From: Paractinoplanes aksuensis
GTDB lineage: Bacteria > Actinomycetota > Actinomycetes > Mycobacteriales > Micromonosporaceae
Assembly (NCBI RefSeq): GCF_024137025.1
Contig: NZ_JAMYJR010000001.1
Coordinates: forward strand, 341,541 to 405,540
Length of the DNA: 64,000 bases
Reading direction: 5' to 3'
The notes beneath the pieces are model-generated. The model had not been told where the DNA came from and did no database searches. It saw only the letters and a list, made by a program, of their open reading frames with translations. The position numbers and the translations under genes are program-made. Of this stretch, positions 5,419 through 17,114 are shown in pieces; position 1 is the stretch's first letter, and every line of letters starts with the position of its first letter.

Positions 5419-5515
5419 AACCCGGCGCCGAGTTCCGACCGTGGTCCGACGACAGCGAGGGCCGAAATCCCGAGACTTCCTGTGACAGAAGCGACGTCAG
5501 AGGGAGAAGATCGTC

Positions 5516-7711
5516 ATGTTCACTGCGCTCGGGAGGTTCGTCGTCCGGCGGGCCCGGTTGACACTGCTCGGCTCGTTGGTGGTGTTCGCCGTGACCGCGG
5601 TGCTCGGCTTCGGGGTCTTCGCCGGGCTGGCCAACGGCGGCTTCGACGATCCCGCCTCCGACTCGTCCCGCGCCGCCCAGATCCTCGAGGACGACTTCGG
5701 GGCCGGGCCGCCCAACATCGTGCTGGTCGTCACGGCCGACGGCGGGAACGTGGACGCTCCCGACGCCGCGGCCGCCGGCCAGGCCCTGTCGACCGGGGTG
5801 GCCGGCCTGGCCGGGATCGACGAGGTCACCTCGTACTGGAATGCCGGTCAGGCCCCGGCCCTGCGCTCCGACGACGGCCGGGAAGCGCTGGTGCTGATCC
5901 GGGCGGGCGGCGACGACACCGCTCAGGAAGAGGCGGTCGTCCTAATCCGTGACCAGTTCGGCGGCGACCGCGGGCCGATCACGACCGAGATCGGCGGTCA
6001 GGCCGCGTTCGGCGAGGCGCTCGGCCACGGCCTCGAGCAAGACCTGGTGCTGGCCGAGTCGATCGCCATCCCGCTGACGCTGCTGCTGCTCCTGTTCGTC
6101 TTCCGCGGGGTCGTGGCGGCGCTGCTGCCGCTGGTCGTGGGCGCCTCGGCCACCGTCGGCGCGTTCTTCGTGCTGTGGGCGATCTCGCAGGTCACCGACG
6201 TCTCGGTCTTCTCGATCAACCTGGTCACGGCGCTCGGCCTGGGCCTGGCCATCGACTACTCGCTGCTGATCGTCTCGCGGTTCCGCGAGGAGCTGACGGC
6301 CGGTCACGACGTCGGCCTGGCGGTGATCCGCACGGTCGAGTCGGCCGGCCGCACGGTGCTGTTCTCGGGCGTGACCGTGGCCGTGGCGCTGCTGGCCCTG
6401 ATCGCGTTCCCGCTGTTCTTCCTCCGATCCTTCGCGTACGCCGGGGTCGGGGTCGTGCTGGTGGCCGTGCTCGCGGCCGTGATCACCCTGCCCGCGCTGC
6501 TGGCCGTGCTGGGCCACCGGGTCAACGCGTGGAAGCTGCCCGGCGTCGTCCGCACCGACTCGCCGCGCTGGGCCGGGATCGCCGAAAAGGTGCTGCGCCG
6601 TCCCGGCCTGGTCACCGGGGGCGTGGTCGCGCTGCTGGTGCTGCTCAGCCTCCCCGTGCTCGGCACCAGCTTCGGCAACCCCGACGCCCGCGTGCTGCCC
6701 TCGGACGACCCGGCCCGGGTGGCCACCGAGAAGGCGCAGCGCGAGTTCGGCTTCACGGCCGAGGCCTTCCCGGTCGTGCTCCGGGGCGCTCCCGACCCGG
6801 CCCGCATCGACACCTATGCCGGCTCCGCGTCCCGCCTGCCGAACGTGGCCGAGGTGGTCACCGCCCGCGGCACCTGGACCGACGGTCAGCAGACGGGTGA
6901 GCCCGGCCCCGACGCCCGCAAGTTCCAGGCCACGGCGGGGGAGTGGCTCGAGGTCGTTCCGTCGGTGGTCCCGATCTCGTCGGAGGCGACCGACCTCGTC
7001 CACGACCTGCGCGAGCTCGACCCCGACGTGCTCGTCGGGGGCAGCGCGGCCCAGCTCGAGGACACCAAGGCGTCGATCCTGGCCGTCGCGCCGTGGGCCG
7101 CGCTGTGGATCGCGGTCGCCACATTCGTCCTGTTGTTCCTGATGTTCGGCAGTTTCCTGGTGCCGCTCAAGGCGATCGTGCTCAACACCCTCAACCTGAC
7201 CGCGATGCTCGGCCTGATGGTCTGGATCTTCCAGGACGGCAACCTGTCCGGCCTGCTCGGCTTCACCCCGACCGGCTTCACCGACATCGCGATGCCGCTG
7301 CTCATGTTCGCCGTGGCGTTCGGCTTGTCGATGGACTACGAGGTCTTCCTGCTGGCCCGCATGAAAGAGGAGTACGACCGTACGGGCGACAACCACGCCG
7401 CGATCGTCACCGGCATCGCCAAGACCGGCCGCATCGTCACGGCGGCCGCCCTGGTCCTCTCGATCACGTTCTTCGCCTTCGCCACCAGCGGCATCACGTT
7501 CATGAAGATGTTCGGCCTGGGCCTGGGCCTGGCCGTCCTGATCGACGCCTTCATCGTCCGCGCCACGCTGGTCCCGGCCCTGATGAAGCTGGCCGGCAAG
7601 GCCAACTGGTGGGCCCCCGCGTGGGCACGCCGCGTCCACGCCCGCGCCGGCCTCGACGAGTCCGGCGGCACCCTCTCCACGTCGACCGAGCGGGAGCGCA
7701 CGCTCGTCTGA
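5516..7711 (+). CDS. MMPL/RND-family membrane exporter
   Basis: 731 aa with two homologous halves. Each half has one membrane helix, a large extracytoplasmic loop and a five-helix bundle. The conserved MMPL segments are ALGLGLAIDYSLLIVSRFRE in the first half and FAVAFGLSMDYEVFLLARMK in the second, carrying the Asp-Tyr pairs used for proton relay. Start ATG 5516 follows GGGAGAAG. Members export lipids, siderophores or drugs with the proton gradient. The divergent kinase/regulator pair suggests envelope-stress or drug-responsive expression. Substrate unknown. Confidence 0.93.
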   Translation: MFTALGRFVVRRARLTLLGSLVVFAVTAVLGFGVFAGLANGGFDDPASDSSRAAQILEDDFGAGPPNIVLVVTADGGNVDAPDAAAAGQALSTGVAGLAGIDEVTSYWNAGQAPALRSDDGREALVLIRAGGDDTAQEEAVVLIRDQFGGDRGPITTEIGGQAAFGEALGHGLEQDLVLAESIAIPLTLLLLLFVFRGVVAALLPLVVGASATVGAFFVLWAISQVTDVSVFSINLVTALGLGLAIDYSLLIVSRFREELTAGHDVGLAVIRTVESAGRTVLFSGVTVAVALLALIAFPLFFLRSFAYAGVGVVLVAVLAAVITLPALLAVLGHRVNAWKLPGVVRTDSPRWAGIAEKVLRRPGLVTGGVVALLVLLSLPVLGTSFGNPDARVLPSDDPARVATEKAQREFGFTAEAFPVVLRGAPDPARIDTYAGSASRLPNVAEVVTARGTWTDGQQTGEPGPDARKFQATAGEWLEVVPSVVPISSEATDLVHDLRELDPDVLVGGSAAQLEDTKASILAVAPWAALWIAVATFVLLFLMFGSFLVPLKAIVLNTLNLTAMLGLMVWIFQDGNLSGLLGFTPTGFTDIAMPLLMFAVAFGLSMDYEVFLLARMKEEYDRTGDNHAAIVTGIAKTGRIVTAAALVLSITFFAFATSGITFMKMFGLGLGLAVLIDAFIVRATLVPALMKLAGKANWWAPAWARRVHARAGLDESGGTLSTSTERERTLV

Positions 7712-10888: not shown

Positions 10889-10915
10889 TGTCACAGGGGG
10901 TGGGGCTGTTCGGTC
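10889..10915 (+). promoter_or_regulatory. ECF41-type promoter of the NAD(P)-binding protein gene
   Basis: TGTCACA (10889-10895), 16-bp spacer, GGTC (10912-10915). ECF41 sigma factors are known to use TGTCACA with a 16-bp spacer to CGTC. The -10 element ends 43 bp before ATG 10958, the same distance as at the two other copies near this sigma gene (15343-15369, 16327-16353). Confidence 0.7.
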
Positions 10916-10957
10916 GAAGTTGGCAACTGAGGCCATTGGATGAGGGATGTGACGGGC

Positions 10958-11698
10958 ATGAAGATTGCCGTGCTGGGTGGGACCGGGCTGATCGGGTCGC
11001 AGGTTGTCAAGCTGATGCGGGAGCACGGTCACGAGGCGGAGCCGCTGTCGCCGGCCAACGGGGTCGACCTGCTGACGGGGGAGGGGCTCGACCAGGGGCT
11101 CAAGGGGGCCGACGTCGTGGTCAACCTGACCAACTCGCCTACGTTCGATGACAAGTCGATTCCGTTCTTCCGGACGACCATGGAGAACATGCTGGCCGCG
11201 GCCGAGCGGCAAGGGGTCGGGCACGCGGTGATCCTGTCGATCGTCGGTGTCGACCAGGTGCCGGGGCTCGACTACTACAAGGCCAAGGTGCTGCAGGAGG
11301 AGATCCTCAAGGGCGGGCCGGTGCCGTGGTCGATCGTGCGGGCGGGGCAGTTCTTCGAGTTCATGAAGTCGGTGCTGTCGTGGGTGGTCGACGGGGACAA
11401 TGTGCACCTGCCGTCGACGCCGATCCAGCCGCTCGCTTCGGCCGAGATCGCCCGCAAGGTGGCGCAGGTGTCGGCGGGCAAGCCGCTGAACGACGTCGTG
11501 AACATCGTCGGGCCCGAGGTGTTCCCGCTCGACGAGTTGGGGCGCATCGCCCTGGCCGCCAAGAACGACCCGCGGAAGATCGTCACCGACAACACGGCCG
11601 GCATGTTCGCCGCGGTCGAGGGTGACGTGCTGACCGGCCCGGCCGGCTCGGTCATCGCCACCCAGACTTTCCGCGAGTTCCTCGCCGCCCAGAACTGA
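10958..11698 (+). CDS. NAD(P)-binding atypical SDR (NmrA/epimerase-like)
   Basis: About 246 aa. Rossmann fold starts at once (MKIAVLGGTGLIGSQVVKL, GxxGxxG). It lacks the YxxxK catalytic pair of classical SDRs and resembles NAD(P)H-binding NmrA/epimerase-like proteins. ATG 10958 is preferred over ATG 10940 because it puts the Rossmann motif at the N-terminus and matches the promoter-to-start distance of the two other ECF41-type promoters. ECF41 sigma factors typically control an oxidoreductase, epimerase or carboxymuconolactone decarboxylase; this would be the epimerase-like member. Substrate unknown. Confidence 0.88.
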   Translation: MKIAVLGGTGLIGSQVVKLMREHGHEAEPLSPANGVDLLTGEGLDQGLKGADVVVNLTNSPTFDDKSIPFFRTTMENMLAAAERQGVGHAVILSIVGVDQVPGLDYYKAKVLQEEILKGGPVPWSIVRAGQFFEFMKSVLSWVVDGDNVHLPSTPIQPLASAEIARKVAQVSAGKPLNDVVNIVGPEVFPLDELGRIALAAKNDPRKIVTDNTAGMFAAVEGDVLTGPAGSVIATQTFREFLAAQN

Positions 11699-11715
11699 AG
11701 CGGATTGCGGGCCGG

Positions 11716-12552
11716 TCAGGGCTGATAGGAGGCGCCCAGCACCGAGAGCAGCTCGAGTTTCTCAGCGCTCTCGGTGCCGGGCGTCGCTGTGTAGACCACG
11801 ACTTGCTGCGATTGGTCGGGGTCGATCAGGCGCTGGCAGAACAGTTCGATCGCGCCCACCTGGGGATGCACCAGCCGAACCTGGCCACAGTAGGGCCCGG
11901 CCACCGGATGCTCCTTCCACAACGCCGCGAACGCCGGACTCTCGCGCAGCAGGGCCGCCACCAGCGCCCCGGCGCGGGAGTCAGCGCCGTCCCGGGTGTA
12001 CGACGAATGCAGGTCGGCCACGATCAGCCGGCTCTGCTCGTCGTGGTCCTCCGGGGGATAGGCCGCCCGGGCCGCCGGATCCGTGAACCACCGGTAGTGT
12101 TTGCTGCGCGCGAGCCCACTGTGGACACTCTCGTCCCCGATCAGAGCGACCGACAACGGCGTCTGCAGCAGCGTCTCGCCCAGCGAGCTCACCACCTGCG
12201 CCGCCACCCCCTGCAGGCCGTCGAAGATGCGCCGCATGCCCGGGTTGATGTGGTCGGTGTCCGTGGCCCGCCGGCCCACCGCGTAGCCCGCGAGCCGGAA
12301 CAGATGCTCGCGCTCCTCGAGCGAGAGCCGCAGCGCGCGAGCCAACGCCTCCAGGATCTGCTCCGACGGGTGCGGCCCGCGCGGCTGCTCCAACCGCGTG
12401 TAGTAGTCGATCGACATGCCGGCCAGCACCGCGACCTCTTCCCGCCGCAGCCCCCGCGTACGCCGCCGGCGCCCGCGCGGCAGGCCCACGTCCTCGGGTT
12501 GCAGCGCTTCCCGGCGCGTGCGCAGGTAGTCGGCGAGAAGAGCGCGGTCCAT
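11716..12552 (-). CDS. XRE-family regulator with MmyB-like ligand-binding domain
   Basis: 278 aa. N-terminal helix-turn-helix around residues 10-70 (RTRGLRREEVAVLAGMSIDYYTRLEQ), then a PAS-like MmyB domain (about 100-270) that in this family binds fatty acyl or other small ligands. Start ATG 12552 lies 2 bp after the stop of the SDR at 12555, so the two are co-transcribed. In actinobacteria this regulator type is usually paired with one SDR gene and controls it; that arrangement is kept here. Confidence 0.88.
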   Translation of the reverse strand: MDRALLADYLRTRREALQPEDVGLPRGRRRRTRGLRREEVAVLAGMSIDYYTRLEQPRGPHPSEQILEALARALRLSLEEREHLFRLAGYAVGRRATDTDHINPGMRRIFDGLQGVAAQVVSSLGETLLQTPLSVALIGDESVHSGLARSKHYRWFTDPAARAAYPPEDHDEQSRLIVADLHSSYTRDGADSRAGALVAALLRESPAFAALWKEHPVAGPYCGQVRLVHPQVGAIELFCQRLIDPDQSQQVVVYTATPGTESAEKLELLSVLGASYQP

Positions 12553-12554
12553 CC

Positions 12555-13454
12555 TCAGGCCGCCGGAACGGAGCCGAAAGAGACGCCGGTCAGAGAGGCC
12601 GACACGTCCCACAGCCGGTCGGCCGCGGCGAGGTCCCGGGCGGGCTTGTAGACGGCCAGCTCGGTCGCCTTCCCGGTGAACTGCCCGATCCCGTCCGGCC
12701 CGTACAGCCGCCCACCCGCAGCCCTGGTCGCCAACAGCGCGGGCAACAGCCCCTGATCAACCCCCTGCACGAAGACCCCCCAACGGGCCAGCCGCGACAT
12801 GATGGCCTCGAGCCGGGCCGGTTTGTCCCGCCCCAGGTTCGGCCCGGCCGCGTAGAGCCCGGTCAACGTCGTGCCCGGATGCGCCGCATTGCTGACGATG
12901 CCCCACTCCGCGTCTCGCGACCGCCGGTCGAGTTCGAGTGCGAACATCAGATTCGCCAACTTCGACTGCCCGTACGCCTTGATGGCCGCGTACTTGCCGG
13001 TGCTCTGCAGGTCTTCGAAGTTGATCTTCGCGCTGCGGGCGGCGCTGCTGGTCATCGTCGTAACGTGGGCCTTCCCCTCGCGCAGCTGCGGCAGCAACCG
13101 GGCCGTCAACGCGAAGTGCCCCAGATGGTTGGTGCCGAACTGCAGCTCGAACCCGTCGGCCGTGGTCTGCCGGACCGGCGGCGCCATCAGGCCGGCGTTG
13201 TTGACGAGCAGGTCGATCGGCCGGTCCACCGTCCCGGCGAACGCCGCCACCGAATCGAGCGACGCCAGATCCAGCGCCCCCATCGTGACGCGGGCGTCCG
13301 GCACCTCGGCCCGGATGCGCGCCACCGCGGCCTCGCCCTTGGCCGGGTCACGGACGGGCAGCAGCAGCTCGGCGCCACCGGCGGCCAGTCGGGTGGCCAG
13401 GCCCAGGCCCACGCCACTGCTCGCCCCGGTCACCACAGCCAGCTTCGTACTCAC
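12555..13454 (-). CDS. Short-chain dehydrogenase/reductase
   Basis: 299-aa classical SDR with TGASSGVG cofactor motif near the N-terminus, NNAGLMAPP in the middle and the catalytic YGQSK (Tyr, Lys) in [10 protein letters not shown]. Start GTG 13454 follows GGGAG by about 7 bases; an upstream extension to 13490 lacks one. First gene of a two-gene operon with the XRE regulator. Similar enzymes are annotated as retinol- or protochlorophyllide-type reductases; the substrate here is unknown. Confidence 0.9.
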
Positions 13455-13521
13455 GAGAAACTCCCAGGTCAGATGCGGATTTGACTCCACCTTGACGCGG
13501 CCCGGCGGCCGTAACCATGGT

Positions 13522-13869
13522 CTATGAGTACAAGCTCCAGCGCCGCAGCTTGTCGGGGTTGAGCACTATCCAGAGGGTGGCGATCTCCCACGGACTGCCG
13601 GTGGCCACCAGCACCGCCAACGGGGTGCCGTCGGCGCGGCGGGCGATCAGGCCCGGCAACCCGTTGACGGTTTCCCGGGCCAGCGCGGCCCCGGCCAACA
13701 GGCTCAACAGCAGCAGCGCGACCTCGACCGCGCCCCGCACGGGCTCGTGCGGGGCGGGCACCAGGCCGCCGCCGTCGCAGACCGCCACGACGTCGGGGGA
13801 CAGCAGGGACTCGATGGCGGCGAGATCGGCGGATTCGCAGGCGGCAGCGAGCAGATGGACCAGTTGCAT
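13522..13869 (-). CDS. Free-standing SnoaL-like domain related to the ECF41 C-terminal domain
   Basis: 115-aa NTF2/SnoaL-like protein, 17 bp downstream of the NADH dehydrogenase gene and in its operon. It aligns by eye with the C-terminal domain of the sigma factor at 15379 ([14 protein letters not shown] against [24 protein letters not shown] against LWLMNPQKI). ECF41 sigma factors carry conserved DGGG and NPDKL motifs in this domain. The free copy keeps both, while the sigma factor has diverged at both. It may therefore act on the sigma factor in trans, or bind a ligand for it. No sigma2 or sigma4 sequence is present. Confidence 0.8.
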
Positions 13870-13886
13870 CGGCCGGACGGCTCGGC

Positions 13887-15299
13887 TCAGGCCTGCGTGT
13901 CGGCGGTGGCCTGCGTGTCGGCGATGGCCTGCGTGTCCGCGATAGCCCGCGTGTCCGGGGTGGCCCGCGTGTCCGCGGTGGCCCGGGCCGGCTCGCCACC
14001 GGTCTCGAACGCCTGGCGCGGGTGCTGCACGGAGGCCAGCGACACGATGTCGCGCCCGTAGAACACGGCCGTGATCCACACCGCGAGGACCCGTACCTTG
14101 CGCTCCCAGGTCGGCACGGCCAGCACGTGGTAGCCCCGGTGCATCACCCAGGCCGGGAATCCCTTGATCACGATGCCGTGCCACTGGAAGATGCCCCGCC
14201 CGAGACCCAGCGTCGCCACCACACCCAGGCTGGCGTGCTTGTAGGGCCTGGCCTTCCGTCCGCGCAGGGTGGCGATCAGGTTCTTGGCCAAGAGCTTTCC
14301 CTGGCGTACGGCGTGCTGGGCGTTCGGCACGGTGGCCGCGCCCGGCCGTTCGATCGCCAGGTCGGGCACCGCCGCGTCGTCGCCGGCCGCCCACGCGTCC
14401 TCGATCGGCTCCTCCGGCGTGCCCACCCGCAGGTCGGCCCGCACCACGACCTGGCCGCGGGCGTCGATCGGCAGGTCGGTGTGGTTGTGCACCATCGGGT
14501 TGGCGCCGTTGCCGGCCGTCCACACGATCAGCTCGGAGTCGAACTCCTCGCCGGTCGAGAGCACGATGTGCCCGTCGGTGGCCGAGCGCAGTTGGGCGTT
14601 GAGGTGCACGTGCCCGCCGCGCTTCTCGAGGTGTTCGACGACCCAGCGCCCGGGCCCGTCGGTCACCTCGGGCAGGATGCGGTCGCGCGCCTCGACCAGG
14701 TGGAAGCTCAGCTCGGCCGGGTCGAGCTCGGGATACTTCTTGACCAGGGCCTGGCCCAGCGACATCAGCTCGCCGAAGCCCTCGACCCCCGAGAAGCCGC
14801 CGCCGACGAAGGTGACGGTCAGCAGCCGCCGCCGGTGCGGGCCGCGCGGCAACGTCGCCGCATGATCGAAGGCGGTCAGCATCCGGTCGCGGATGGCCAC
14901 GGCCTCCTCGACGTGTTTCATGCCGATGGCGTGTTCGGCGACACCCGGAATGGCCAGTTTGCGGGTCACCGCCCCCGCGGTGACGACCAGAATGTCGTAC
15001 GCCAATGGGAAGCTCTCTCCGACGGCCGGTTGCACCTGGACCGTGCGGTGGGCGTGGTCGATCGTCGTGACCGAGCCGTTGATCAGCTGTGTCTTCCTCA
15101 GGTGGCGGCGATGCGCGACCGCCGCGTGCCGCGCCTCGACCGAGCCGGCCACGACCTCGGGCAGAAAGGGCTGATACGTCATGTAGGGGCGCGGATCGAC
15201 GATGATGACCTTCGCCTCGCCCCGGCGGAGCTTCTTCTCCAGCTTCCAGGCCGTGTAGAAGCCGGCATAGCCACCGCCGACCACCAGTATCGTCCGCAT
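13887..15299 (-). CDS. ndh: Type II NADH dehydrogenase-like FAD oxidoreductase
   Basis: 470-aa single-subunit NADH:quinone oxidoreductase type. FAD motif MRTILVVGGGYAGFYTAWKL, NADH-binding motif VTFVGGGFSGVEGFGE, later WAAGDDAAVPD, and a C-terminal hydrophobic segment (VRVLAVWITAVFYGRDIVSL) that would bind the membrane. The last ~30 residues are five 6-residue repeats of A-(T/I)-A-D-T-(Q/R) type encoded by 18-bp tandem repeats. Start ATG 15299. An ECF41-type promoter lies upstream (15343-15369), so it belongs to the sigma factor's own regulon. Confidence 0.92.
   Translation of the reverse strand: MRTILVVGGGYAGFYTAWKLEKKLRRGEAKVIIVDPRPYMTYQPFLPEVVAGSVEARHAAVAHRRHLRKTQLINGSVTTIDHAHRTVQVQPAVGESFPLAYDILVVTAGAVTRKLAIPGVAEHAIGMKHVEEAVAIRDRMLTAFDHAATLPRGPHRRRLLTVTFVGGGFSGVEGFGELMSLGQALVKKYPELDPAELSFHLVEARDRILPEVTDGPGRWVVEHLEKRGGHVHLNAQLRSATDGHIVLSTGEEFDSELIVWTAGNGANPMVHNHTDLPIDARGQVVVRADLRVGTPEEPIEDAWAAGDDAAVPDLAIERPGAATVPNAQHAVRQGKLLAKNLIATLRGRKARPYKHASLGVVATLGLGRGIFQWHGIVIKGFPAWVMHRGYHVLAVPTWERKVRVLAVWITAVFYGRDIVSLASVQHPRQAFETGGEPARATADTRATPDTRAIADTQAIADTQATADTQA
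13891..13980. repeat. Five 18-bp tandem repeats at the 3' end of ndh
   Basis: Units begin at 13891, 13909, 13927, 13945 and 13963 (plus-strand consensus GCC(T/C)GCGTGTC(G/C)GCG(G/A)TG). They encode hexapeptide repeats at the very C-terminus of the dehydrogenase and keep frame. Probably slipped-strand expansion of a dispensable tail. Confidence 0.85.
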
Positions 15300-15342
15300 C
15301 GTGCCCTCTGTTCTCCCGCTGACGAGCTTTCTCGCTCACTAG

Positions 15343-15369
15343 GACCGGGAACGGCGCGGGAATGTGACA
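15343..15369 (-). promoter_or_regulatory. ECF41-type promoter of the ndh-SnoaL operon
   Basis: On the minus strand, TGTCACA (complement of 15363-15369), 16-bp spacer, GGTC (complement of 15343-15346). The -10 element ends 44 bp before the ndh start. Same motif and spacing as at 10889 and 16327. It lies between the sigma gene stop and ndh, so ndh can be transcribed without read-through from the sigma gene. Confidence 0.75.
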
Positions 15370-15378
15370 GGGTGTCCG

Positions 15379-16248
15379 TCAGCTCACAGCGGCGATCTTC
15401 TGCGGATTCATCAGCCACAGCACCTGCTCGATGCCGTCCGCGGACACGTCCAGGGCCAGCACGGCGAGCGTGTCCGGCCCGCGGTGCAGCACGGCGCTGG
15501 TCTGGCCGTTCATAGTGATGTAGCGGACCTCGACGCCGTCCCACCACCAGGCCGAGAACGCGGCGATGTACTTGGCCACGCGGGCCGCGCCGACCACCGC
15601 GCGCCGCGAGACCTGGCGGGCCCCGTTGCCGTCGCTGATGCTGGCCACCTCGGCCGCGAACAGCTTCTCGAGCCCCTGCATGTCGCCGTTGCGGGCGGCG
15701 GTGATGAACGTGGCCAGCAGCTCGCGCTGGGCCGTGGTCGACACCGGGGCCTTGCGTTCGCCGGTGACGTGCTTGCGGGCCCGGCTCACCAACTGGCGGA
15801 CGGCGGGCTCGTTGCTGCCGAGGATGTCGGCGATGTTCCCGTACGGGTAATCGAACGCCTCGCGAAGCACATAGGCCGCCCGCTCGTTGGGTGTCAGCTT
15901 CTCGAGCAGCATCAGCACCGCGAACTCGAGCGCGTTGCCGGTCTCGGCCCCCAGATAGGGGTCGGCGCTCGTGTCGACCGGCTCGGGCAGCCACGGCCCG
16001 ACGTACGTCTCGCGCCGCACCCGGGCCGACTGCAGGTTGTTGATCGCGAGCCGGGTCGCCGTGGTGGCCAGGAAGGCGCCCGGGTTCTCCACGGTGTCGC
16101 GGTCGTACGTCTGCCAGCGCACCCAGACGTCCTGCACGAGGTCCTCGGCCTCGGTCGCGCTGCCCAGCATGCGATAGGCGATCCCGAACAACCGAGGCCG
16201 CACCTCCGTGAACACCCGTGCTGCCTCGTTCAGATCACCCAGACCCAT
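15379..16248 (-). CDS. sigJ: ECF41-family RNA polymerase sigma factor (SigJ-like)
   Basis: 289-aa extracytoplasmic-function sigma factor with a fused SnoaL domain. Sigma2 (about 10-75: RLFGIAYRMLGSATEAEDLV, DVWVRWQTYD), linker with the ECF41 signature GPWLPEP, sigma4 HTH (about 110-170: NERAAYVLREAFDYPYGNIA), then SnoaL (about 180-285). The usual DGGG and NPDKL motifs of the SnoaL part are here DGNG and NPQK. ECF41 factors use this domain instead of a separate anti-sigma factor. Start ATG 16248; divergent from the hydrolase at 16395. Predicted targets are the three TGTCACA-N16-GGTC promoters. No such motif lies upstream of sigJ itself. Confidence 0.92.
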   Translation of the reverse strand: MGLGDLNEAARVFTEVRPRLFGIAYRMLGSATEAEDLVQDVWVRWQTYDRDTVENPGAFLATTATRLAINNLQSARVRRETYVGPWLPEPVDTSADPYLGAETGNALEFAVLMLLEKLTPNERAAYVLREAFDYPYGNIADILGSNEPAVRQLVSRARKHVTGERKAPVSTTAQRELLATFITAARNGDMQGLEKLFAAEVASISDGNGARQVSRRAVVGAARVAKYIAAFSAWWWDGVEVRYITMNGQTSAVLHRGPDTLAVLALDVSADGIEQVLWLMNPQKIAAVS

Positions 16249-16326
16249 GCGTGCCCCCTCCCGGCCCGTTCATCCTGGCGCGCTGACCTGCTCTTTCACC
16301 AGTTTCTGGCCAGTGACCATCAATAC

Positions 16327-16353
16327 CGTCACAGAACCGCGGGCTGTCCGGTC
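16327..16353 (+). promoter_or_regulatory. ECF41-type promoter of the alpha/beta hydrolase
   Basis: CGTCACA (16327-16333), 16-bp spacer, GGTC (16350-16353), 42 bp before ATG 16395. One base off in the -35 relative to the copies at 10889 and 15363. Lies in the divergent region between sigJ and the hydrolase. Confidence 0.7.
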
Positions 16354-16394: not shown

Positions 16395-17114
16395 ATGCCC
16401 GATAGCACCAAGCCCACCGTCCTGCTCGTGCACGGCGCGTTCGCGGAAGCCGCCAGCTGGAACGGCGTCCTCGAGCGGCTGGCCGCCGAACCGCTCGACG
16501 TGATCGCCGTGGCCAACCCGCTGCGCAGCCTGGCCGGCGACGCCCAGTACCTCAGCGACGTCATCGACGGGATCGGCGGCCCGGTGCTGCTGGTCGCCCA
16601 CTCGTACGGCGGGATGGTCATCACCGAGGCCGCCGCCGGCAACGAGGAGGTCAAGGGCCTCGTCTACGTCGACGCGTTCGCCCCGGCCCCGGGGGAGTCG
16701 GCGTTCGGGCTCTCCGTGAAGTTCCCCGGCAGCACGCTGGGCGACGCGCTGGCCGCCTACCCGGTCTCGACCGGCGGCAACGAGTTCACGATCCGCCGCG
16801 ACGTCTTCCACCAGCAGTTCTGCGCCGACGTCCCCGACGACGTGGCCGCGCTGATGGCCGCGACCCAACGCCCGGTGACCGAGGCCGCGTTGTCGACGGC
16901 CCTGGCCGCCGACGAGCCGGCCTGGCAGTCCGTCCCGTCGTGGTTCGTCTACAGCGACGCCGACCTCAACATCCCGGTCGAGCTGCACCGCTGGATGGCG
17001 AACCGGGCCGGCGCCAAGACCGCCCGCGAGATCCCCGGCGCCTCCCACGCCCTCACCGTCTCCCAGCCCCGGGCCGTGGCCGACGTGATCCTCGAAGTGA
17101 TCGCCGCGGCCTGA
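16395..17114 (+). CDS. Alpha/beta hydrolase
   Basis: 239-aa soluble hydrolase. Oxyanion-hole motif LLVHGAFAEAASWNG, nucleophile elbow VAHSYGGMV (Ser), late His in IPGASHALTVSQP. This salicylate-esterase/haloperoxidase-like subgroup has no secretion signal. Start ATG 16395 follows GAGGGGGAAG. Divergent from the sigma gene and preceded by an ECF41-type promoter, so probably part of the same stress response. Substrate unknown. Confidence 0.92.
   Translation: MPDSTKPTVLLVHGAFAEAASWNGVLERLAAEPLDVIAVANPLRSLAGDAQYLSDVIDGIGGPVLLVAHSYGGMVITEAAAGNEEVKGLVYVDAFAPAPGESAFGLSVKFPGSTLGDALAAYPVSTGGNEFTIRRDVFHQQFCADVPDDVAALMAATQRPVTEAALSTALAADEPAWQSVPSWFVYSDADLNIPVELHRWMANRAGAKTAREIPGASHALTVSQPRAVADVILEVIAAA

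Follow-up and report, generated by a model that had tools for sequence, protein, structure and literature searches.

A predicted ECF41 sigma factor regulon in Paractinoplanes aksuensis and a free-standing relative of the sigma factor's regulatory domain

Overview of the locus

We analysed a window of 64,000 nt from Paractinoplanes aksuensis (NCBI RefSeq assembly GCF_024137025.1, contig NZ_JAMYJR010000001.1, positions 341,541 to 405,540 of the forward strand), in which a sigma factor gene of the extracytoplasmic function (ECF) group ECF41 lies among three predicted promoters of ECF41 type and the genes behind them (Table 1). A preliminary description, made from the letters of the window, had outlined a regulon here. 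Its core was right, but it passed over a short gene that encodes a free-standing relative of the regulatory domain which ECF41 sigma factors carry fused to their C-terminus. This companion domain, as we call it, is the most interesting part of the locus, and the earlier reading was too narrow.

Table 1. Features of the ECF41 locus, in positions of the 64,000-nt window.
Feature	Position	Strand	Basis
ECF41-type (SigJ-like) sigma factor gene, 289 amino acids (aa)	15379..16248	-	TIGR02957, NF007214
GPWLPEP linker codons, between sigma2 and sigma4	15979..15999	-	Read from sequence
NPQKI of the fused domain, in place of the NPDKL named for ECF41	15394..15408	-	Sequence, alignment
Companion, free-standing relative of the ECF41 C-terminal regulatory (SnoaL-like) domain, 115 aa	13522..13869	-	TIGR02957
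CDGGG motif of companion	13765..13779	-	Sequence, alignments
NPDKL motif of companion	13546..13560	-	Sequence
Predicted ECF41-type promoter of nadb	10889..10915	+	TGTCACA-N16-GGTC
Predicted ECF41-type promoter of ndh and the genes behind it	15343..15369	-	TGTCACA-N16-GGTC, without the extended GCTGYCC element
Predicted ECF41-type promoter of abh	16327..16353	+	CGTCACA-N16-GGTC, extended; GCTGTCCGGTC
NDH-2-like NAD(P)H dehydrogenase gene ndh, 470 aa	13887..15299	-	Pfam Pyr_redox_2, E 7.7e-39
NmrA/NAD(P)-binding oxidoreductase-type gene nadb	10940..11698	+	Pfam NAD_binding_10, E 2.6e-10, above cut-off
Alpha/beta hydrolase gene abh, predicted target	16395..17114	+	Pfam Abhydrolase_6, E 2.2e-23
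Short-chain dehydrogenase/reductase (SDR) family oxidoreductase gene	12555..13490	-	NF004513, 414.8 bits (cut-off 282)
Helix-turn-helix (HTH) regulator gene, MmyB-like ligand domain	11716..12612	-	Pfam MLTR_LBD, E 5.2e-42; HTH_31, E 1.2e-12

Conserved predicted promoters

The motif YGTCACA-N16-GGTC occurs three times in the window, compared with a mean of 0.17 and a maximum of 2 in 100 dinucleotide shuffles, and the coordinates, strands and 16-base spacers of the three sites all agree with those first reported. From the last base of GGTC it is 43 nt to the start codon of ndh, 41 nt to that of abh and 42 nt to the MKIAV start of nadb (ATG 10958), which is probably the true one; an alternative, earlier in-frame ATG of nadb lies 24 nt from the end of GGTC. 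A scan of the whole genome (10.0 Mb in 99 contigs), which had been proposed as a check, yielded 22 matches to YGTCACA-N16-SGTC and 6 to the backwards pattern, so that some of the genome-wide matches must be due to chance.

We followed the sites through 77 loci, namely the window and the loci around orthologues of ndh, the sigma factor or the companion at the level of genus and family. Each gene was searched for an exact YGTCACA-N16-(C/G/T)GTC within 150 bp upstream, a pattern that by construction excludes A as the first -10 base; genes that aligned only after residue 25, or over 120 residues or fewer, were left out of this test, and three duplicate loci (L074, L078, L079) entered neither the test nor the locus comparison. 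An exact site precedes ndh in 26 of 31 loci, nadb in 47 of 52 and abh in 8 of 15; read backwards, the pattern was found before no gene of any class tested, the sigma factor, SDR and HTH genes included. When spacers of 15–17 are admitted the count for ndh becomes 28 of 31, and two further ndh genes have one-letter variants (TGTCACG in L094, AGTC in L105). By the same exact test no site of its own was found within 150 bp of the SDR gene (0/11 loci) or the HTH regulator gene (0/12).

Of the 84 distinct sites, 69% begin the -10 element with G, 29% with T and 1% with C. The proposal of GGTC as the local -10 is thus supported, but GGTC is one of two forms in this clade, which has G or T before GTC. 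The spacer of the 84 sites also tends to end in GCTGYCC, and the extended pattern that combines these preferences, YGTCACA-N9-GCTGYCCKGTC, matches 48 times in 67 congeneric genomes and never when read backwards. For 39 of the 48, a gene of one of four families starts within 150 nt downstream: nadb in 23 cases, ndh in 6, abh in 5 and a TMEM175-family gene in 5. In the window the abh site fits the extended pattern and the nadb site fits it with one mismatch. The shuffles, the reversed-pattern controls and the conservation together rule out a chance origin, and it is the conservation in relatives that makes these sites convincing as predicted promoters. The extended spacer may predate the clade, given that the ECF41 promoter listed for SMb20029 of Sinorhizobium meliloti has GCTGTCT directly before CGTC (PMC6180224, Table 1).

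In nine of the 26 ndh promoters (L103, L106, L107, L109, L110, L111, L115, L116, L117) the -10 element ends 8–9 nt before the ATG, a distance that would suit leaderless transcripts.

The sigma factor and its link to the sites

The sigma factor passes two curated models, TIGR02957 (326.4 bits, cut-off 323.25, residues 12–287 covered) and the SigJ model NF007214 (281 bits, cut-off 271), which we read as representing ECF41, SigJ being a named member of that group. Among solved structures, SigJ itself (5xe7, E 2.3e-44) is the sole relative at E 1e-10. The linker reads YVGPWLPEP, and WLPEP is kept in all 64 orthologues examined; together with the two models this bears out the initial identification of an ECF41-type factor from GPWLPEP. 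The SnoaL-like C-terminal extension of about 100 residues that marks the group is present, although Pfam SnoaL_2 by itself gives 14.4 bits, below its cut-off of 27. Within this fused domain the window's sigma factor has SDGNG and NPQKI, while NPxKL is found in 28 of the 64 orthologues.

The sites, too, are of ECF41 kind, with a -35 element TGTCACA and a -10 core GT(C/T) about 16 bp further on, except that the first -10 base is G and not the consensus C; the published ydfG site has a -10 that reads TGTT (PMC3426412). Neighbours of the oxidoreductase type expected of ECF41 are present in nadb (NAD_binding_10/NmrA), the SDR gene and ndh. The sigma factor gene has no site upstream, as was noticed at the outset, and among 64 orthologous sigma genes one has such a site, with one more in genome G223.

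We infer that the neighbouring ECF41-type sigma factor reads the sites. The extended pattern occurs in 25 of the 38 congeneric genomes that have the orthologous sigma factor and in 4 of the 29 that do not (nominal p 2e-5), a co-occurrence which favours this sigma factor as their reader.

Identity of the companion domain

The companion gene starts 17 nt past the stop codon of ndh, and its product matches the ECF41-type models in their last part only, which in TIGR02957 means positions 168–279 of 281 (E 8.9e-17). Where the sigma factor's own fused domain has SDGNG and NPQKI, the companion has CDGGG and NPDKL. PxKL is kept in 39 of 39 aligned companions, a figure with a mild bias because a profile of the same alignment served to find them. 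The companion matches no anti-sigma family in Pfam (E 0.1) or NCBIfam (E 0.01), nor Pfam SnoaL_2 at E 0.1, where DUF4440 alone appears (E 0.084), below its cut-off. A structure model built from 24 sequences has a mean predicted local distance difference test (pLDDT) score of 90.6 and a predicted NTF2-like fold; compared with the Protein Data Bank it places SigJ (5xe7) first and SigG1 next among natural proteins, with TM-scores of 0.67–0.70.

The same gene is present in the close kin Paractinoplanes polyasparticus (L231), P. pyxinae (L232) and P. maris (L233). A search limited by design to 0.55 to 1.75 times the companion's length returned 30 proteins including the companion itself, and the ones with an organism name belong to Actinoplanes, Paractinoplanes and Amycolatopsis.

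Immediately upstream of the companion gene, at 13890–13983, about five copies of an 18-bp tandem repeat encode the C-terminal tail of the ndh product (TADTQA-like). The idea that this repeat might fuse ndh to the companion by a frameshift was dropped, as the 18-bp unit is a multiple of three.

Companions accompany intact sigma factors

The locus around the companion takes several forms. The gene lies directly behind the sigma factor gene (L070, L071, L080), behind ndh (in the window, L094–L096 and others) or behind a site of its own, the last in 5 of 27 loci (e.g. L073, L075, L108). Within the genus, a companion is found in 23 of the 38 genomes that have the sigma factor and in none of the 29 others (p 3.5e-8). 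This list was assigned by hand from matches above 112 bits; it leaves out two full-length sigma factors (G226, 111.8 bits; G149, 110.1 bits), adds G204 (104.8 bits, beside its sigma factor) and counts G223, whose companion is of the sigma2-bearing form described below.

Among genomes named by organism, a search with the domain alone covered 179 stretches; out of 93 relatives obtained, we retained the best 80 and classed them with profiles of sigma2, sigma4 and the linker. Fifteen of these 80 are full-length ECF41 sigma factors and 65 lack a complete sigma core: 33 consist of the domain alone, 30 of sigma2 and the domain without sigma4, one is full but for the linker and one has only a sigma4-like remnant. 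The loci had been preselected by two peptide patterns taken from the companion alignment, one of them containing NP[AD]K, so that 65/80 is not a rate, and the NPxKL count in named companions (64/65) is likewise biased and was not used. Of the 65 companion loci, 52 have an intact ECF41 sigma factor at a distance of up to about 6 kb, compared with 2 of the 15 full-length sigma loci (p 2.3e-6); in being encoded next to a sigma factor the companion resembles an anti-sigma factor beside its cognate sigma. The 65 companion loci hold 134 sites against 2 reversed, with at least one in 62 of them, and the 15 full-sigma loci hold 5. The genera include Kribbella, Amycolatopsis, Nonomuraea, Herbidospora, Planotetraspora, Streptosporangium, Actinomadura, Catenulispora and Saccharothrix, several of them represented by near relatives. 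Judged from gene neighbourhoods, the companion is tied to intact ECF41 sigma factors across actinomycetes.

Origin of the companion

Some companions retain parts of a sigma core. A sigma2-like half precedes the domain in one genome of the same genus (G223, at L220) and in L222, L224 and L225. In a different family, f21, such a half is found at L170 and L173, and a degenerate longer core without WLPEP at L165 and L167. In the 30 sigma2-type companions from named genomes, the first portion of sigma2 is well conserved and both linker and sigma4 are absent. The conserved part extends to about what we take to be region 2.3, with region 2.4 missing. No linker was found in sigma2-bearing companions, either in a set of eight or among the 30 named ones.

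Two domain trees bear on the origin of the companions. In the first, which left out domains below 110 bits as companions, the companions of this family group together, separately from the fused domains of the cognate sigma factors (31 of 32 rows, three of them of sigma2 type). In the second, 30 domain-only rows fall into one clade (support 100/99) and the companions of f21 (genus g70) form a second group, so that complete loss of the sigma core must have occurred two or more times. We reject a recent duplication of the domain fused to the cognate sigma factor as the source, as that domain is not the closest kin of the companion in the trees. By these comparisons the companion appears to descend from another ECF41 sigma factor that lost its linker and sigma4, in some lineages sigma2 as well, and kept the domain.

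A proposed feedback brake and its alternatives

On balance we favour, with modest confidence, the reading that the sites are predicted promoters of the neighbouring sigma factor and that the ndh promoter also drives the companion, which would likely bind the sigma factor in trans as a feedback brake. The sigma factor, once freed by some signal, would transcribe ndh, nadb and abh; the ndh transcript would also yield the companion, whose PxKL face would dock on the sigma factor's WLPEP linker, and the docked companion would restrain the sigma factor and so close the loop. The transcription step is well supported in silico, and we infer the shared transcript of the genes behind ndh, the docking and the restraint. 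In ECF41, NPDKL has been described as connecting the domain with the WLPEP linker (PMC7730460), and the retention of this contact face in proteins that have no linker of their own suggests a partner in another protein. As to sign, when the fused domain was shortened at its end, target promoters became about 20- and 120-fold more active with the ECF41 sigma factors of Bacillus licheniformis and Rhodobacter sphaeroides, respectively (PMC3426412), and by analogy the companion may be a brake. Tentatively, we extend this to the suggestion that many actinomycete ECF41 sigma factors may be two-protein systems, in which a second sigma factor, its DNA-reading parts lost, would now be a regulator in trans, with or without a core-binding sigma2, placed in the intact sigma factor's regulon and feeding back on the WLPEP linker.

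Several observations weigh against this proposal, some by favouring other explanations. Seven of the 15 abh genes lack a site; the window's own ndh site lacks the extended element and does not fit the extended pattern even with up to three mismatches; and nine of the 48 extended matches lie outside the target list, some of them before hydrolase-, carboxymuconolactone decarboxylase- or cupin-like genes (names read from the translation alone) and two (L211, L214) with no evident target. Because the genomes compared share ancestry, and the named and genus sets overlap, the Fisher p-values given here overstate the evidence. NPxKL is present in 4 of 23 sigma factors with an adjacent companion and in 24 of 41 others, a difference (p 0.0017) that is not significant when ancestry is considered; with only three supported independent pairs, we do not claim that the companion has been traded for a decay of NPDKL in cis. 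Three genomes that lack the orthologous sigma factor (G172, G174, G215) have ndh orthologues with N16 or N17 sites, so another ECF41 sigma factor may read some sites, and the P. aksuensis genome does have further sigma genes of the ECF41 kind. That the sites are real but are read by such paralogues instead is nonetheless very unlikely: the four genomes that have the extended pattern without this sigma factor are few beside the 25 of 38 that have both, sigma factor and nadb adjoin in many genera, and the paralogue genes at L097 bear CGTC sites instead.

For the companion, the opposite sign of action is to be considered: since removal of the whole fused domain abolished activity in the same two ECF41 sigma factors (PMC3426412), a free domain could instead help the sigma factor. 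Such a helper, the main rival, would be a positive partner within the same regulon, supplying a needed part of the domain or carrying a ligand and so giving positive feedback, and the 30 companions with a conserved sigma2 part could touch RNA polymerase through it. We regard this as possible, if rather unlikely: the fused domain of this sigma factor is complete and would need no supply, and partial loss of the domain raised activity by the factors given above. A companion that binds, hydrolyses or buffers a signal molecule in its NTF2-like pocket, with no contact to the sigma factor, would account for the epoxide hydrolases and ketosteroid isomerases among the structural matches and for one relative (P0028) labelled limonene-1,2-epoxide hydrolase by its source; yet sigma domains rank above the listed enzymes, whose TM-scores are at most 0.60, and the motif kept in every aligned companion is the one named as the sigma contact face, which leaves this explanation unlikely. 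It is quite unlikely, too, that the companion is what remains, without function, of a second ECF41 sigma factor and rides along in the operon. A graded series of core completeness does exist, the sigma factor can dispense with the companion (15 of the 38 sigma-bearing congeneric genomes have no companion match), and the companion evolves faster than its neighbours, with a ratio of nonsynonymous to synonymous substitution rates (dN/dS) of 0.28–0.69 compared with 0.11–0.22 for the sigma factor and ndh. That ratio is nevertheless below 1 in five of five comparisons, and the frame stays open, as domain alone in 33 and with sigma2 in 30 of the 80 named loci; the domain was retained each time the full core was lost, and the companions with a site of their own argue in the same direction.

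Comparison with known systems

The ECF41 sigma factors Ecf41Bli, Ecf41Rsp, M. tuberculosis SigJ and S. meliloti RpoE9 share with the one described here the order of sigma2, WLPEP linker, sigma4 and SnoaL-like domain, and likewise a -35 TGTCACA, a 16-bp spacer and an oxidoreductase-type neighbour as target (PMC3426412, PMC6180224). For Ecf41Bli, Ecf41Rsp and RpoE9 the portions of these papers available to us report one target gene or operon and no second regulatory protein, whereas the window has at least three predicted promoters, a -10 that is mostly G/T-GTC and often follows GCTGYCC, and a separate relative of the regulatory domain. ECF41 sigma factors are described as having their regulator fused to themselves and presumably no second protein as anti-sigma factor (PMC3426412). 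In the searchable literature, whose coverage is incomplete, we found no published description of a free-standing ECF41 regulatory domain.

The companion can also be set beside anti-sigma factors. In the SigG1–RsfG pair of Streptomyces tsukubaensis (ECF56), RsfG is described as a cognate anti-sigma factor; the companion is a relative of the sigma factor's own fused domain. With the soluble and membrane anti-sigma factors of other ECF groups it shares a gene next to the sigma factor gene and, as predicted, placement under that sigma factor's control; it differs in being related to sigma factors and in matching no anti-sigma family.

If the companion acts in trans, the picture of ECF41 as a group with a fused regulator would be incomplete for a good number of actinomycetes, and the locus would offer a clear case of a sigma factor turned regulator of another, with intermediates still in living genomes. 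A domain that exists as a separate small protein would also make the SnoaL-like control of an ECF41 sigma factor directly testable, and the predicted regulon connects ECF41 with an NDH-2-like dehydrogenase and thereby, possibly, with redox state.

Target genes and further candidate sites

The closest solved sequence to the ndh product is a non-electrogenic NADH:ubiquinone reductase (9mqy, E 2.4e-35), and 9pxk also matches (E 7e-31). While it thus resembles the type II NADH dehydrogenases, it passes no curated NCBIfam model, which sets it apart from them, and its use of quinone is putative. Orthologues at 73% identity or more occur in 26 of the 67 congeneric genomes, and all 67 hold other homologues at about 34–47%; from this distribution ndh is an accessory copy. 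The early suggestion that the regulon includes a respiratory dehydrogenase is reasonable in so far as an NDH-2-like gene is among the predicted targets. The SDR gene is likely co-transcribed with ndh and the companion, and the HTH regulator gene is likely the final gene of this run.

The preliminary description outlined a compact regulon within 6 kb of the sigma factor. The local targets stand, but this is too narrow, as a TMEM175-family gene elsewhere has the extended site. The best further extended match in the P. aksuensis genome (one mismatch) lies 40 nt before this gene, and its orthologues in G217, G218, G222 and G224 have an extended site 42 to 77 nt upstream. Beside it a divergent YidB-like gene, like the TMEM175-family gene, has YGTCACA-N16-GGTC, here about 30 nt before its start (L083 5858–7244, contig C24 of the same genome), and the YidB-like gene in G222 is likewise preceded by a site.

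Other sites have a CGTC -10. In P. aksuensis, another NDH-like gene (L012, contig C24:590376) has CGTCACA-N16-CGTC 8 nt before a possible start, and a second NmrA-like gene (L013, contig C28:80263) has the same motif 31–46 nt before possible starts; the latter site is perhaps read by another ECF41 sigma factor of this genome. In G214 (L097), ECF41 paralogues with CGTC-type sites and two weaker SnoaL-like frames (94 and 87 bits) are found close to a second copy of ndh, which suggests that these paralogues differ in -10 preference.

Two genes of about 400 residues that resemble each other, at L215 and L217, lie behind sites of TGTCACA and GGTCACA type with an extended-like -10; the one in G212 directly follows the sigma factor gene, and the one in P. 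aksuensis is at contig C28:94008. Within the window, finally, TGTCACA-N16-CGGC, one mismatch from the ECF41 consensus, occurs at 5461–5487 on the reverse strand, near the start, at 5516, of an MMPL transporter gene on the opposite strand.

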